A DNA stretch of 64,000 bases from Donghicola tyrosinivorans (GTDB lineage: Bacteria > Pseudomonadota > Alphaproteobacteria > Rhodobacterales > Rhodobacteraceae): assembly GCF_003003355.1 (NCBI RefSeq), contig NZ_PVTQ01000014.1, positions 1 through 64,000 of the forward strand, read 5' to 3'. The notes under the pieces are model-generated. The model had not been told where the DNA came from. It saw nothing but the letters and a program-made list of their open reading frames with translations, and made no database searches. Positions 735 to 39,185 of the stretch are shown here, in pieces. Position 1 is the first letter of the stretch, and each line of letters starts with the position of its first letter. Made by a program: the position numbers and the translations under genes.

Positions 735-1559
735 TCAGGGCGAGGCTTTGCGAGAAGTCAGCGGCGCTGATTGACCTCGAGAAAAGGCGTAAAATTCCTC
801 GTCCTGTTTTTTCTGTCTTTGCATTGATCTCAGCGCGTAAGCCAAAGTAGGGTCGAACTTTTCCGCTTTTTTCGCTGGCTTTGGATTGTCGTAGTTGCCT
901 TCCATCAGCTTTGCGAAATTGGCCTTGGTCATGATCCAGTCAAAATTTGCTGGGGTAGTTCCGGTCTTCTTGCCAGAGAGGAAGTTGGACTTTTCAGCCT
1001 TCGTGATCTGAGCTTTCCAGCCCTGTAGCCCGCCAGCTTCCTTCATTCTCAGAAGCAAGGCCGCCTTTCTGGGGTTGGTCAGTTCTCTGGGGACAGGCCA
1101 TTCGATCCGCGCAGCGACTGCTTTGAAGAACTCGAACGCTTCTTGGACTTCCCCCTTCTCATTTCCCTGTTTTGAGAAAGAAGGTTCTTTTCCAAGGTTA
1201 TTTCTTACAAGGTTATTGATGCGCAGATTTTGCGTATCCCCATGCGCAGATTTTGCGGGAGGGATGCGCAGATTTTGCGCATGGGGGTCTTGTAGCGAGA
1301 GGGTGTAGGAATTTGAGGTTTTGCCGCCGCCATCTCTACGCATTTCCCGCCGTGAAATGAGGCCGCGGCTCTCAAGTTCGCTGAGGTGATTTTCGACTGA
1401 GCGCCTAGACATCTCGCACAACTCGGCAAGCCTATTGATGCTGGGGAAGCAACGGCCGTCGGTTTCGTTGTGGTGGTCGGCCAGCCAGTAGAGGACGATC
1501 TTCGTTGCGGGTTTCAATCCCGGCTGCATAATCGCAAGCGCTGTCATGTAATGGCTCAT
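735..1559 (-). CDS. Winged-helix replication-initiator-like protein (lambda O / HTH_36 type)
   Basis: 274 residues. Residues about 10-75 (LKPATKIVLYWLADH, then SINRLAELCEMSRRSVENHL and a wing with LISRREMR) form a winged helix of the HTH_36/phage replication protein O type, found in phage, plasmid and island replication genes. The rest is charged and unassigned. The ATG has AAGGG about 8 nt upstream and lies 10 bp after the 87-residue gene, so alpA, that gene and this one form one operon. Three near-palindromic repeats (1219-1282) lie inside the coding region around residues 93-114, as in lambdoid O genes where the origin iterons are internal. It could instead be a plain transcription factor; replication is inferred from fold, context and repeats. 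Confidence 0.65.
   Translation of the reverse strand: MSHYMTALAIMQPGLKPATKIVLYWLADHHNETDGRCFPSINRLAELCEMSRRSVENHLSELESRGLISRREMRRDGGGKTSNSYTLSLQDPHAQNLRIPPAKSAHGDTQNLRINNLVRNNLGKEPSFSKQGNEKGEVQEAFEFFKAVAARIEWPVPRELTNPRKAALLLRMKEAGGLQGWKAQITKAEKSNFLSGKKTGTTPANFDWIMTKANFAKLMEGNYDNPKPAKKAEKFDPTLAYALRSMQRQKKQDEEFYAFSRGQSAPLTSRKASP
1219..1282. repeat. Three iteron-like 16-bp repeats within the replication-type gene (candidate origin)
   Basis: ATGCGCAGATTTTGCG occurs exactly at 1219-1234, 1242-1257 and 1264-1279, with start-to-start spacing of 23 and 22 bp (about two helical turns). The third copy extends to a perfect inverted repeat, ATGCGCA-GATTT-TGCGCAT (1264-1282); the first copy matches at six of seven arm positions. 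On the left lies an A/T-rich stretch (about 1155-1218) with CAAGGTTATT repeated at 1193 and 1208. The repeat is read in different protein frames (QNLRI twice, PAKSAHG once), so it is conserved as DNA, not as a peptide repeat. Confidence 0.65.
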
Positions 1560-1569
1560 TGTGAAACCC

Positions 1570-1833
1570 TTAGTCGCTGATTTCGCTGACAGCGCGATCT
1601 AGCGCTTGTCTGAAGGCACTGAGTTTGTGTGTCAGTGCGTGGGCCAGAAGTTCCCCCATTTCTTCCATGGGGCGGCCATCTATGAGGATGTCTGCCACGC
1701 CAAGAAAACGGAGGTCCGCTGCAAGTGCAGTCGCTCCGCCTTCGCGAAACGCCCGTTCAAGCGCGTGTTCGATTAGCCGCAAGCGGGTATCGATCCGGCG
1801 CAACGTGTCTTGCTGGTCGTGGCTGAGTTTCAT
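1570..1833 (-). CDS. Hypothetical 87-residue island protein
   Basis: The start is taken at ATG 1833, where ATGA overlaps the stop of the alpA-like gene, a sign of translational coupling. Longer upstream readings run through alpA in another frame and are not credible. The product is a helical, Arg/Leu/Glu-rich protein (MKLSHDQQDTLRRIDTRL...) without membrane segments or known motifs. Its position between alpA and the replication-type gene suggests a role in regulation or replication of the island, but that is inference from context only. Confidence 0.6.
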   Translation of the reverse strand: MKLSHDQQDTLRRIDTRLRLIEHALERAFREGGATALAADLRFLGVADILIDGRPMEEMGELLAHALTHKLSAFRQALDRAVSEISD

Positions 1834-2132
1834 GCGCTGGCGCTCCGCGACTTGCGGCGCTGCTCGTTGATCCAAGCCCTGACTTCGACCTCGAACCAAT
1901 AGCGATTCTTTGAAATGTGGACAGGAACCGGAAACCCAAGCTCTGGGTCTTGGAGCCACCGCCAAATGGACATGTCACTGACGCCGCCACACAGTTCGCG
2001 CACTGTTTCGGGCTTGATCAGTTTATCAGGATCGATGTTCCCAACGGATGATCCGCAATTGGAAGTCTCCAACTTGGGGGAAATCAATTCGTTTGGGCAG
2101 TTGAAAACTTTATCGGTTTCGATCTGCGGCAT
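1830..2132 (-). CDS. AlpA-family excisionase/transcriptional regulator
   Basis: The C-terminal half (IKPETVRELCGGVSDMSIWRW to INEQRRK) is an AlpA/MerR-like helix-turn-helix in which the DNA-binding domain is followed by the typical FPxPVHISKNRYWFEVEVRAW segment. AlpA proteins of P4-like elements and PICIs activate integrase or replication genes or act as excisionases. The start is set at ATG 2132 because AAGGAGGTGGCA precedes it directly; a start at 2165 lacks such a site. The roughly 50-residue N-terminal tail is unassigned. The gene leads the alpA/87-residue/replication-type operon and lies just downstream of a terminator that shields it from integrase transcription. Confidence 0.85.
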   Translation of the reverse strand: MPQIETDKVFNCPNELISPKLETSNCGSSVGNIDPDKLIKPETVRELCGGVSDMSIWRWLQDPELGFPVPVHISKNRYWFEVEVRAWINEQRRKSRSASA

Positions 2133-2167
2133 TGCCACCTCCTTTTTAGTTGCAGGGGGTGGCAAAT

Positions 2168-2413: not shown

Positions 2414-3643
2414 TTATTTCGCATGTGTCTCGAATTGAACAACGTTTTTCATTGTTTCAGCATTTCGAAGACGAATGACGCGCTTCGACCATGCTTCAAG
2501 CGCCCGCCGCTTCTCTTGTTCGAAATCATGGTGGTTATAGCGGCGGTCCATCACGGGAATATCACTGAGGTGGTTTGTTGCTCTTGAGCGGATTTCAAGG
2601 CTTACCCCAAGGGCGGCCAAGCCAGTCTTCACCGTATGCCTGAGGTCGTGAGGACGCCAATGCGGGATAGTGATCGTTTCGCCTACTTCCTCTGTCGCGA
2701 TCTCTTCCATTCGCGCTGCAAGTCGTGCGGTGGGCTTTGAAAGGGAAAGCGCCGGTGCTGTTCCATTGGTGGTGAAGACGTAGGGGCCCTTTACCGGCAT
2801 GGCTTCGATTAACTCTCGTGCCTCTGGGGGCAAGGGCACGTCATGGCGTTCGCCGTTCTTGGTCGATGAAAGGCGCCAGACACCGGCGCTGTCGATATCG
2901 TCCCACTGCATCCGCGCCACTTCTCCGCGCCTCTGGCCGGTCAACAGAAGCATTTTGAAGAATGCCCCCCAAGGCTTTGGTTCATCGTCACATGCCCGCC
3001 AAAGCCAGCGGATTTCATCATCTGATAGGGGTCGGTCCCGTGCCTTCTCCCTTGCGGGCATTTTCAGGCCGATTGCCGGTGACTGTTCGATAACGCCGCG
3101 ATCCTCGCACCAGCTGAGGAACTTGGAGAGGTAAGCCTTGACGCGGTTCGCCGTAGTCGCCCGTCCATCGTCTATGATCTCATCCAGTAGGTGAACGATA
3201 TCGCGCCGCGTGATGTCCGATACTTCGCGATCCCCCCAGACCGGAAGGACGTTGAACCGAAGCGACTGCATGACCGCTTCGCCCGTCTTGATGGTGCTCA
3301 GGTGTCTTCTGTGGAAATTGTCCAGCTGCACTGACACCGTGTTCTTGCCAGAAATCCTTGCGGCCTTTTTGATCCGCTTTTCTGCCGCTGGATCGTGGCC
3401 TTGTTCTATGCCTTCCAGAGCCTGAGAGGCGGCGGCCCGTGCCGCTGCAACGCCCATGATAGGCCATTTGCCCAGCGTCAGTTTCTTAGGCTTGCCTGCT
3501 TGCCGGTATCGAATAGCCCAGCTTTTGGCACCAGAAGGCTGAACGATCAGGTAGAGGCCGGTAAGGCCCGGATCGGGTATTTCCCGCCGCTGATCTGAGG
3601 GTTTCGCGGCCTCGACGGCCTTTGTGGTGAGCGCCCTTGCCAT
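2414..3643 (-). CDS. int: P4-type tyrosine recombinase (integrase)
   Basis: 409 residues, normal for P4-like site-specific integrases. An N-terminal DUF4102-type arm-binding domain (residues 1-90, GLYLIVQPSGAKSWAIRYR) is followed by a SAM-like core-binding domain (about 105-200) and the catalytic domain. The active-site residues are visible: R238 (TGQRRGEV), K262, H332 and R335 (RPHDLRHT), H358 (TNH) and Y369 (MDRRYNHH). The ATG at 3643 has GGAGGGAG upstream. It integrates and excises the island at a tRNA-Thr 3' end located 165 bp upstream of its start, the usual position for this family. Repeats between the gene and the tRNA fragment may be arm sites. Confidence 0.93.
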   Translation of the reverse strand: MARALTTKAVEAAKPSDQRREIPDPGLTGLYLIVQPSGAKSWAIRYRQAGKPKKLTLGKWPIMGVAAARAAASQALEGIEQGHDPAAEKRIKKAARISGKNTVSVQLDNFHRRHLSTIKTGEAVMQSLRFNVLPVWGDREVSDITRRDIVHLLDEIIDDGRATTANRVKAYLSKFLSWCEDRGVIEQSPAIGLKMPAREKARDRPLSDDEIRWLWRACDDEPKPWGAFFKMLLLTGQRRGEVARMQWDDIDSAGVWRLSSTKNGERHDVPLPPEARELIEAMPVKGPYVFTTNGTAPALSLSKPTARLAARMEEIATEEVGETITIPHWRPHDLRHTVKTGLAALGVSLEIRSRATNHLSDIPVMDRRYNHHDFEQEKRRALEAWSKRVIRLRNAETMKNVVQFETHAK

Positions 3644-3719: not shown

Positions 3720-3808
3720 AACTGAAACTATGTCAAACTTTCCTTTTAAAACAGGTGTTTTTGATCGATTTGGAGGATTGATTTTTCAAGGGGTTAGAAC
3801 CCCCTAAA

Positions 3809-3858
3809 ACTGATTTGTAATCAGTAGGTCCGCGGTTCGAGTCCGTGTGGGGGCACCA
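3809..3858 (+). other. attachment site: 3' half of a tRNA-Thr (anticodon TGT) left by integration
   Basis: The sequence carries an anticodon arm (ACTGA, loop TTTGTAA, TCAGT), a variable loop, a T arm with TTCGAGT, the 3' acceptor strand TGGGGGC, a discriminator A and CCA. No D arm or matching 5' acceptor strand exists upstream. This is the classic duplicated tRNA 3' end at the integrase-side junction of an element. The intact tRNA-Thr is expected at the far left end of the island, outside the window. Sequence to the right of 3858 should be the original chromosome. Bases 3859-4049 hold only short inverted repeats. Confidence 0.8.
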
Positions 3859-10501: not shown

Positions 10502-11332
10502 ATGGCACGCGCAGTTACAACCCAACGCAAGATCATCAACACCGCCGCCGCTTGGGCTGTGGGTCTGGCGATCTTCTTCCCGATCCTCTGGACCATCCTC
10601 ACAAGCTTCAAGACCGAGGCGCAAGCGATTGCAGATCCACCACTTTTCCTTGGATTTGACTGGACGCTCGAGAACTACTCGGTCGTGATGGAGCGCTCGG
10701 ACTACGCCAAGTATCTGTGGAACTCGATCATCATCGCGGGTGGCTCGACCCTTCTGGGGATCATCATCGCGGTTCCCGCCGCATGGTCGATGGCCTTTGT
10801 TCCGTCCAAGCGGACCAAGGATATCCTGATGTGGATGCTGTCCACCAAGATGCTTCCGGCGGTTGGCGTTCTCTACCCGATCTACCTGCTGTTCATCAAA
10901 CTGGGCATCCTTGATAGCAAGATCGGTCTGGTCATCGTGCTAATGCTGATCAACCTGCCGATCATCGTCTGGATGCTGTACACCTACTTCAAGGAAATCC
11001 CCGGTGAGATCCTTGAGGCGGCCCGTATGGACGGCGCAACCCTGAAGGAAGAGGTCATCTACATCCTCACCCCCATGGCCATTCCCGGCATCGCCTCGAC
11101 GATCCTGCTGAATGTGATCCTTGCGTGGAACGAGGCTTTCTGGACCCTCAACCTGACAGCCGCAAAGGCGGCCCCGCTGACAGCGTTTATTGCCAGCTAC
11201 TCGTCCCCCGAGGGCCTGTTCTACGCAAAGCTCAGCGCGGCATCGACCATGGCGATTGCGCCGATCCTCATCCTTGGCTGGTTCAGCCAGAAGCAACTTG
11301 TCAGCGGCCTGACGTTCGGCGCTGTGAAATAA
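10502..11332 (+). CDS. smoG: Polyol ABC transporter permease, subunit 2
   Basis: 276 residues, MalG-like, six membrane helices. The EAA loop reads ILEAARMDGATLKEEVIYI (about 174-192). GGAGGGACC directly precedes ATG 10502. It pairs with SmoF in the inner membrane. The conserved gene order binding protein, permease, permease, ATPase, dehydrogenases is that of the Rhodobacter sphaeroides smo/mtl region, which imports sorbitol, mannitol and related hexitols. Confidence 0.92.
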   Translation: MARAVTTQRKIINTAAAWAVGLAIFFPILWTILTSFKTEAQAIADPPLFLGFDWTLENYSVVMERSDYAKYLWNSIIIAGGSTLLGIIIAVPAAWSMAFVPSKRTKDILMWMLSTKMLPAVGVLYPIYLLFIKLGILDSKIGLVIVLMLINLPIIVWMLYTYFKEIPGEILEAARMDGATLKEEVIYILTPMAIPGIASTILLNVILAWNEAFWTLNLTAAKAAPLTAFIASYSSPEGLFYAKLSAASTMAIAPILILGWFSQKQLVSGLTFGAVK

Positions 11333-38821: not shown

Positions 38822-39185
38822 GACCGCGTCCTTTCATGCAGTTCTGGATGATCTCTTCGCGTTTTTCGCCGTGTTCGTTCATCGCGGCAAAGCCTCCTGC
38901 CGCCGCGCCCACCAGTGCGCCGCCCACGACGTCACCAGCGTCGCTGTCCTCTTCGACAGACCCAAGCAGCGCACCTGCGCCAGCGCCCAGAGCGGTCATT
39001 GCGCGGCCCTCGTGTTGCAACTGCTTCTGGCTGGCGGCCAGATGTTGGCAGGCGCTCAGATCGCTTTGAAAGTTGATGTTTCGGGGGCCGTCGATGATCG
39101 GCTCATAATCGGCACCGGGGGTCGAGCAGGCCGAGATCAAGGGCGCAGCAACGGCGAAGCAGAGGGGAAGAAGTAGGTGTTTCAT
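38805..39185 (-). CDS. Glycine-zipper lipoprotein
   Basis: 126 residues from ATG 39185 (GAGG 8 nt upstream). A lipoprotein signal, MKHLLLPLCFAVAAPLISAC, places the lipidated Cys at residue 20. The middle contains a Gly/Ala-rich segment (LGAGAGALLGSVEEDSDAGD then VVGGALVGAAAGGFAA) of the glycine-zipper type seen in outer-membrane lipoproteins such as SlyB/OmpA-associated proteins. The tail ends NCMKGRGHAVVG. Probably anchored in the outer membrane; role unknown. The 284 bp upstream hold nothing recognisable. Confidence 0.75.
   Translation of the reverse strand: MKHLLLPLCFAVAAPLISACSTPGADYEPIIDGPRNINFQSDLSACQHLAASQKQLQHEGRAMTALGAGAGALLGSVEEDSDAGDVVGGALVGAAAGGFAAMNEHGEKREEIIQNCMKGRGHAVVG

Follow-up and report, generated by a model that had tools for sequence, protein, structure and literature searches.

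For lambda and the Stx phages, iterons that lie inside the initiator gene have been described (accessible part of PMC7466680), and the same holds for the phages P22 and L (accessible part of PMC8022706), where it is also stated that the origin specificity of lambda-type initiators differs between phages. The satellite PLE uses an initiator of the RepA_N type (PMC7145576, available excerpt). Gram-negative PICIs carry a pri-rep gene with an origin 3′ of the gene, in which two sets of iterons flank an AT-rich region (PMC6092414, available excerpt), and capsid-forming PICIs (cfPICIs) make their own capsids (accessible part of the review PMC11389934).

The stretch of DNA that was analyzed here (the window, 64,000 nt) comprises positions 1–64,000 of the forward strand of contig NZ_PVTQ01000014.1 (C14 below) of Donghicola tyrosinivorans (Rhodobacterales, assembly GCF_003003355.1). 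It starts at the contig end (C14:1). An earlier note had proposed that repeats within a winged-helix gene near this end form a lambda-O-style origin of an integrated element. The features of the locus are compiled in Table 1.

Table 1. Features of the initiator gene and of the adjoining island end, in window coordinates.
Feature	Position	Strand	Basis
O-like replication initiator gene, 274 aa: winged HTH, linker, C-terminal domain	735..1559	-	Pfam HTH_36, PHROG 345
Winged-helix (HTH_36) coding part, residues 14-68	1356..1520	-	Pfam; AlphaFold pLDDT
Codons 53-57 (Arg53, Glu56, Asn57), putative recognition helix, covary with iteron half-site	1389..1403	-	covariation; model helix 52-64
Low-confidence linker, about residues 92-133, bearing iterons and DUE-like repeats	1161..1286	-	AlphaFold pLDDT
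Iteron 1, GCGCA-AAATC-TGCGC	1266..1280	-	repeat scan
Iteron 2, CCGCA-AAATC-TGCGC	1244..1258	-	repeat scan
Iteron 3, ACGCA-AAATC-TGCGC	1221..1235	-	repeat scan
DUE-like repeat copy 1, AATAACCTTGTAA on coding strand	1205..1217	-	repeat scan; codon conservation in homologues
DUE-like repeat copy 2, AATAACCTTGGAA on coding strand	1190..1202	-	repeat scan; codon conservation in homologues
131-aa ORF between AlpA-like gene and initiator	1570..1965	-	no Pfam/PHROG family match
AlpA-like excisionase/regulator	1830..2165	-	PHROG 66 E 5.4e-7; Pfam Phage_AlpA E 0.019, under cut-off
Tyrosine integrase	2414..3643	-	Pfam, PHROG
att repeat, 3′ fragment of tRNA-Thr	3808..3858	+	51 bp identical to intact tRNA-Thr on C11

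The 274-aa protein matched Pfam HTH_36 (E 1.7e-16), which was the only Pfam family to pass the cut-off; the Pfam O family was not matched, and no RepA_N match was listed at E up to 0.1. PHROG 345 ('replication initiation O-like', E 3.9e-24) was matched in addition, as were several further initiator families, and the C-terminal part matched PHROGs 19658 and 10469, the latter of which is annotated as 'DnaD-like helicase loader'. In the AlphaFold model the block means of the pLDDT were 92–98 for residues 11–90 and 42–62 for residues 91–140, as expected of a linker, and most of the C-terminal half was poorly modelled. The predicted helix 52–64, which holds residues 53, 56, and 57, lies where a winged helix has its recognition helix. 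A Foldseek search with the model yielded a single match with E <0.001, the DnaD model 9a5c. The best 50 matches also contained DnaD 2v79 and entries of initiators or Rep-DNA complexes (4pt7, 5kbj), with weak E-values and amid many ordinary winged-helix regulators, and a sequence search of solved structures gave one match (E 0.21). The nearest full-length relative (51%) was found on a Rhodobacterales MAG contig together with Erf- and RusA-like genes.

It was verified that the winged-helix gene contains three exact copies of the 16-mer ATGCGCAGATTTTGCG (1219–1234, 1242–1257, and 1264–1279) with spacings of 23 and 22 bp, and that one of them, at 1264–1282, becomes a perfect inverted repeat when extended, both as had been claimed. 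In the coding direction each iteron comprises 15 bp, with an A-rich centre of 5 bp between a 5-bp arm and a second arm that is complementary, or nearly so, to the first. These semi-palindromic iterons are situated about 280 bp into the initiator's own coding sequence, in the part that encodes the linker. In the whole window eight matches to the 16-mer were found with up to three mismatches, compared with a mean of 1.29 and a maximum of 4 in 100 dinucleotide shuffles. A triple-repeat score, which combines three-way likeness with palindromy, was 55 for the window gene, while the best values were 45 in 1000 synonymous-codon shuffles and 40 in 1000 mononucleotide shuffles. The claim that the copies use different reading frames held for copy 2, which is shifted, but not for copies 1 and 3, which are 45 bp apart and share one frame.

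Homologues were collected from IMG/VR, one Rhodobacterales MAG, 55 of 295 family genomes, and 30 of 385 class genomes (the two latter counts each include the window's own genome, and only part of the matches became loci). The 395 loci were reduced to 372 with an N-terminal match, 365 usable genes, and 167 dereplicated genes. The pooled 99% level of the mononucleotide null was exceeded by 141 of the 167 genes and not by the remaining 26. Of 81 spacings tried, just two, 23/23 (77 genes) and 22/23 (45 genes), accounted for 122 of these 141 triples. The stricter pooled 99% level of the synonymous shuffles (42) was passed by 82 of the 167 genes, 42 of them among the 49 nearest-subfamily genes and 40 among the 118 others, and synonymous shuffles were beaten in all eight homologous genes tried. 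The check proposed in the earlier note, i.e., repeats that stay in place while the codons vary, was positive for 43 of the 49 nearest-subfamily genes, in which the best triple had a spacing of 22-or-23/23 and lay above the shuffle null. Four of the 49 (L054, L065, L072, and L079) were below even the looser null, and what they contain resembles partial triples when judged by eye.

The 20 residues encoded by the iterons had a mean identity of only 24% between genes, compared with 63% for residues 1–90. Within one gene of the nearest subfamily the iteron copies were 82% alike, whereas the same copy was 50% alike across genes, so that the three iterons of a gene evolve together. The half-site types vary by clade and include GCGCA, TGGCA/GTGCA, GTTGC/GTCGC, GTCAA, GTTCA, GTTCG, CTGCA, GTCCG, GTCTC, and CTCCG, among others. 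Because the iterons differ between clades and yet the copies stay alike within a gene, selection acts on the DNA, as had been proposed. In the 11 genes that combine GCGCA iterons with 22/23 spacing, identity was 89–96% in the iteron cores, compared with 41% over the upstream 60 bases and 50% in spacer 1. High values were also found for spacer 2 (91%) and for the 6 bases downstream (89%), for which closeness to the element downstream is the sole explanation that we offer.

This second element, just downstream of the iterons, consists of the repeated motif AACCTTG(G/T)AA with copies 15 bp apart. An A/T-rich stretch with a 10-bp direct repeat beside the iterons had been noticed before, and the direct repeat turned out to belong to a 13-bp near repeat (1190–1202 and 1205–1217). 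The A+T content is 68% over the 38 bases 1180–1217 versus 48% for the whole gene, and the richest 38-nt stretch of the gene (71%) starts at 1170. A protein pattern for the element was found in 46 of the 49 nearest-subfamily genes, irrespective of the iteron type, and its codons are near-fixed: Leu is CTT in 82 of 88 cases (25% in the same genes), Asn is AAC in 89 of 91 (49%), and Gly is GGA in 72 of 72 (31%). Of 45 nearest-subfamily genes, 43 have an exact AACCTTG no more than 60 bases from where iteron 3 starts, as do 33 of 94 others. Many genes outside the subfamily have AACCCTG instead, which by eye forms a 12-bp repeat, with Leu as CTT in 35 of 42 cases versus 11%. We read the AACCTTG motif as a putative unwinding element; alternatively, it may be a second site for a protein.

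For the analysis of covariation, 28 of the 167 genes were dropped for score or spacing, and the remaining 139 were clustered to 89 (90% clusters) or 65 genes (80% clusters). The iteron registers were set blind to the protein before the covariation was ranked. Among 95 HTH positions, residues 56, 53, and 57 (80% clusters) or 56, 57, and 53 (90% clusters) had, in this order, the highest mutual information with the half-site. The ranking was weaker after normalization by entropy, with residue 53 first, 56 in fourth to fifth, and 57 in eighth to ninth place, behind columns such as 83, 5, and 8. In the 65-gene set all 22 genes with Arg57 had a C at base 5, while this was true for none of the 43 without Arg57, and the next best of 212 residue states reached a correlation of 0.51. 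The 36 genes with the clearest registers were divided into 6 and 30 with zero exceptions. The 89 genes gave a 34/1/1/53 table, and the two exceptions (L185 and L203) look like register slips by one base. Likewise, a G at base 3 was present in 23 of 23 genes with Arg53 and in 7 of 42 without it. Glu56 was accompanied by a C at base 2 in nine of nine genes. Since all nine belong to the nearest subfamily and have GCGCA iterons, this pairing could be explained by descent alone, and a correlation was also seen for columns 79 and 80.

To take descent into account, a tree was built without residues 50–60 and the evolution of the bases was simulated on it in 500 runs. For Arg57 and base 5 the observed phi was 0.953, versus a maximum of 0.448 in the simulations, and for Arg53 and base 3 the respective values were 0.811 and 0.643. 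Only three independent pairs were found on supported branches, too few to reach significance. From residues 53, 56, and 57, on average 3.96 of the 5 half-site letters were predicted, compared with 2.72 from random triples outside the helix (3.30 for the best of 300) and 2.33 from a random pair. However, the nearest relative according to the rest of the domain predicted 3.81 of 5 letters, which is scarcely less, so that much of the predictive power is attributable to shared descent. Because the pairs Arg57-C5 and Arg53-G3 survived the tree simulation, the initiator most likely binds its own gene.

Fourteen named phage and plasmid loci were fetched later, 11 of which had a triple above the best of 60 shuffles; among the 14, no triple above the null was found in RcOceanus, Salmonella SI8, and Mesorhizobium. 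In the 11 loci the Arg57 rule holds for nine, the two exceptions being plasmids of Sulfitobacter and Arsenophonus, and a G at base 3 was found in four of five loci with Arg53 and in one of six without. The putative residue-base code is tight in the sampled family and looser beyond it. In the gene of the Arsenophonus plasmid (L417) the half-sites look direct and not inverted (TGACA-AAAAC-GACAA). On a Pasteurella plasmid (L416), an O-like gene contains three iterons that are identical to one another and spaced by 21 bp, and a gene annotated as replication protein P follows it directly, as in lambda.

That the gene belongs to an integrated element, another claim of the earlier note, was borne out by the 51-bp att repeat, which is identical to the 3′-terminal part of the intact tRNA-Thr gene at C11:6466-6541. 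A tRNA-Ser call by ARAGORN (3757–3858) was rejected as probably spurious; it contains the tRNA-Thr 3′ fragment that was left by integration. From the start of C11 to the tRNA-Thr gene (C11:1-6541, L122), genes for TerL, HNH, capsid, protease, a 181-aa protein, and portal (just under the Pfam cut-off, PHROG 12 matched) and two small ORFs were found. From the shared tRNA-Thr repeat we infer that C11 and C14 carry the two ends of one island, which is split over two contigs in the assembly. Over both contigs, the integrase, AlpA-like, and initiator genes on C14 included, the island has at least 10.3 kb, and these genes are co-directional. The contig ends do not overlap, so that a gap remains between them, in which part of the island may be missing. 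No family was matched by the next likely ORF downstream of the initiator, and window position 1 is the end of the contig. No tail genes were recognized among the island ORFs searched with Pfam and PHROG, several of which had no family match, nor was a separate TerS gene found among the island ORFs. The HNH protein partially matches PHROG 4581 'terminase small subunit', and the contig gap may hold TerS. The gene content resembles that of a capsid-forming PICI, and the island looks like a small phage satellite. Apart from the initiator, the island genes matched only two homologue loci (flanks of 1.5–6 kb), and they were dropped as a guide to these loci.

Relatives of TerL at E up to 1e-60 were found in 30 of the 295 family genomes, the own genome included, and in 20 of the 29 others the sister islands were examined (L437-L456). 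TerL, HNH, capsid, and protease genes occur in the same order in all 20 and the portal gene in 19, and a tRNA gene, one of many different ones, lies within about 3.5 kb in 14. An intact O-like gene with 23/23 triple iterons, the triple being called by score alone, is present in one of the 20 (L454), where a 37% relative of the 131-aa ORF adjoins the initiator. A 23/23 triple was also seen in a seemingly broken O-like initiator gene of L452 (about 10650–10940 of the reverse complement); L443 has a borderline triple in an HTH gene, and in L444 an equally scoring triple lies elsewhere in the locus. Several other sister islands have helicase- or primase-like ORFs in the initiator slot, as judged by eye from translations. 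Because the replication-type genes in this slot differ, the O-like replicon is apparently one among several modules that can replace each other on sister islands.

Taken together, the region 1161–1286 is very probably an in-gene origin from which an integrated satellite, similar to capsid-forming PICIs, would replicate after excision, and which would be bound by the satellite's own O-like initiator. The earlier proposal of a lambda-O-style candidate origin is thus supported by the kept iterons, by the covariation of half-site and recognition helix, and by a layout like that annotated for lambda. The anatomy, the conservation at the DNA level, and the covariation of residues and bases were read from the sequence itself. 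We infer the steps of binding, dimer formation, melting, helicase loading, and replication after excision as follows. The initiator very likely works like lambda O. After excision the O-like protein, probably in the form of dimers, would bind with its winged helix to the three palindromic iterons, which are about two helical turns apart, and Arg53, Glu56, and Asn57 would read the 5-bp half-site. Occupation of the iterons would cause the neighboring AT-rich AACCTTG repeats to melt, and the helicase would be recruited through the C-terminal domain, leading to theta replication for packaging.

It could also be imagined that the repeats are not an origin, but operators for the control of the gene itself or of its neighbors by the HTH protein. 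A winged-helix protein could use palindromic sites in this way, the many ordinary winged-helix regulators among the Foldseek matches would fit, and autoregulation would be compatible with an origin role as well. Yet operators would have to lie about 280 bp into the gene, beside AT-rich repeats that are conserved at the codon level, and the rigid 22/23 spacing, the layout like that of the annotated lambda origin, and the matched families, which are mostly replication initiators, make it very unlikely that this is their sole role. A repeat at the protein level, or mere chance, has a negligible probability: copies 1 and 3 do share a frame and encode near-identical residues (AQNLRI and TQNLRI), but copy 2 is in another frame, the 23/23 spacing uses all three frames, and none of the 1000 synonymous shuffles reached the score. 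These observations, together with the low identity of the iteron-encoded residues between genes (24%), led us to reject this explanation.

It is also improbable, if slightly less so than the operator explanation, that the region is an origin-like relic or decoy. In this case the island would not start replication by itself, but would draw in or titrate the initiator supplied by a helper phage with iterons of the same type. In the nearest full-length relative, whose contig carries recombination genes of phage type, both the GCGCA iterons and the helix are the same, and the match of the other island genes to just two homologue loci (flanks of 1.5–6 kb) would agree with this as well. However, the island's initiator gene has an uninterrupted reading frame. 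Under the family rule the helix suits the iterons of the gene itself, and matches to replication families persist in the C-terminal part of the protein. An active origin that is read by its own initiator remains the preferred explanation.

It is tempting to speculate, with considerable reservation, that O-like initiators are a modular family in which the half-site is read by residues 53, 56, and 57 and in which origin and initiator re-tune together within one gene, and that satellites swap in such replicons from phages and, if they share the helper's iteron type, use or titrate the helper's initiator. Because the origin and its reader reside in one gene, phages and satellites can exchange the module as a single unit. 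Three residues, and the bases that they would read, are singled out by the sequence alone, so that the determinants lend themselves to a direct test, and the replication compatibility of satellite and helper might be guessed from sequence.

Compared with the known systems, the locus is similar to lambda O and ori-lambda in several respects. The lambda iterons, too, are located centrally within the gene of their initiator (annotated positions 39034, 39054, 39078, and 39101), they have the design of arm, A-rich centre, and arm with a spacing of 20–24, and an AT-rich tract adjoins them (accessible part of PMC7466680). The triple scan used here recovered the annotated iterons 1–3 of lambda. In contrast, lambda has four iterons and a P gene after O, and the initiator described here has no match to the Pfam O family. 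Furthermore, lambda O has Glu and not Arg at the position aligned to residue 57, although base 5 is a C; with Lys, Asn, and Glu at positions 53, 56, and 57, lambda was rejected as support for the Arg57-C5 rule. The gp18 genes of P22 and phage L differ by having four repeats of about 20 bp or six of 11 bp, and the accessible part of PMC8022706 does not describe a residue-base code. Unlike the window gene, the Salmonella phage SI8 (Lederbergvirus) has no triple above the null.

In RepA_N of pSK41 the origin is likewise central in the rep gene and in the part that encodes the linker, and the N- and C-terminal domains resemble DnaD (PMC5703833, available excerpt). The RepA_N initiators of pSK41 and pTZ2162 and the RepA of PLE share with the locus semi-palindromic iterons, which converge on a poly-A tract, while the PLE repeats are noncoding and the iterons described here lie within the gene (accessible part of PMC7145576). 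The initiator also differs from this family by the absence of a Pfam RepA_N match. In contrast to the Gram-negative PICIs, the island has an O-like gene with the origin inside and not pri-rep with a 3′ origin. With the cfPICIs it has in common a tRNA site and the gene set of integrase, AlpA-like gene, replication gene, HNH, TerL, capsid, protease, and portal. Among the literature matches listed (titles and abstract openings, with subscription papers mostly outside), there was neither a residue-to-half-site code for such initiators nor a capsid-forming satellite of roseobacters. As far as these matches go, the in-gene architecture of the origin is known in principle, and the residue-base code and the satellite setting are new.
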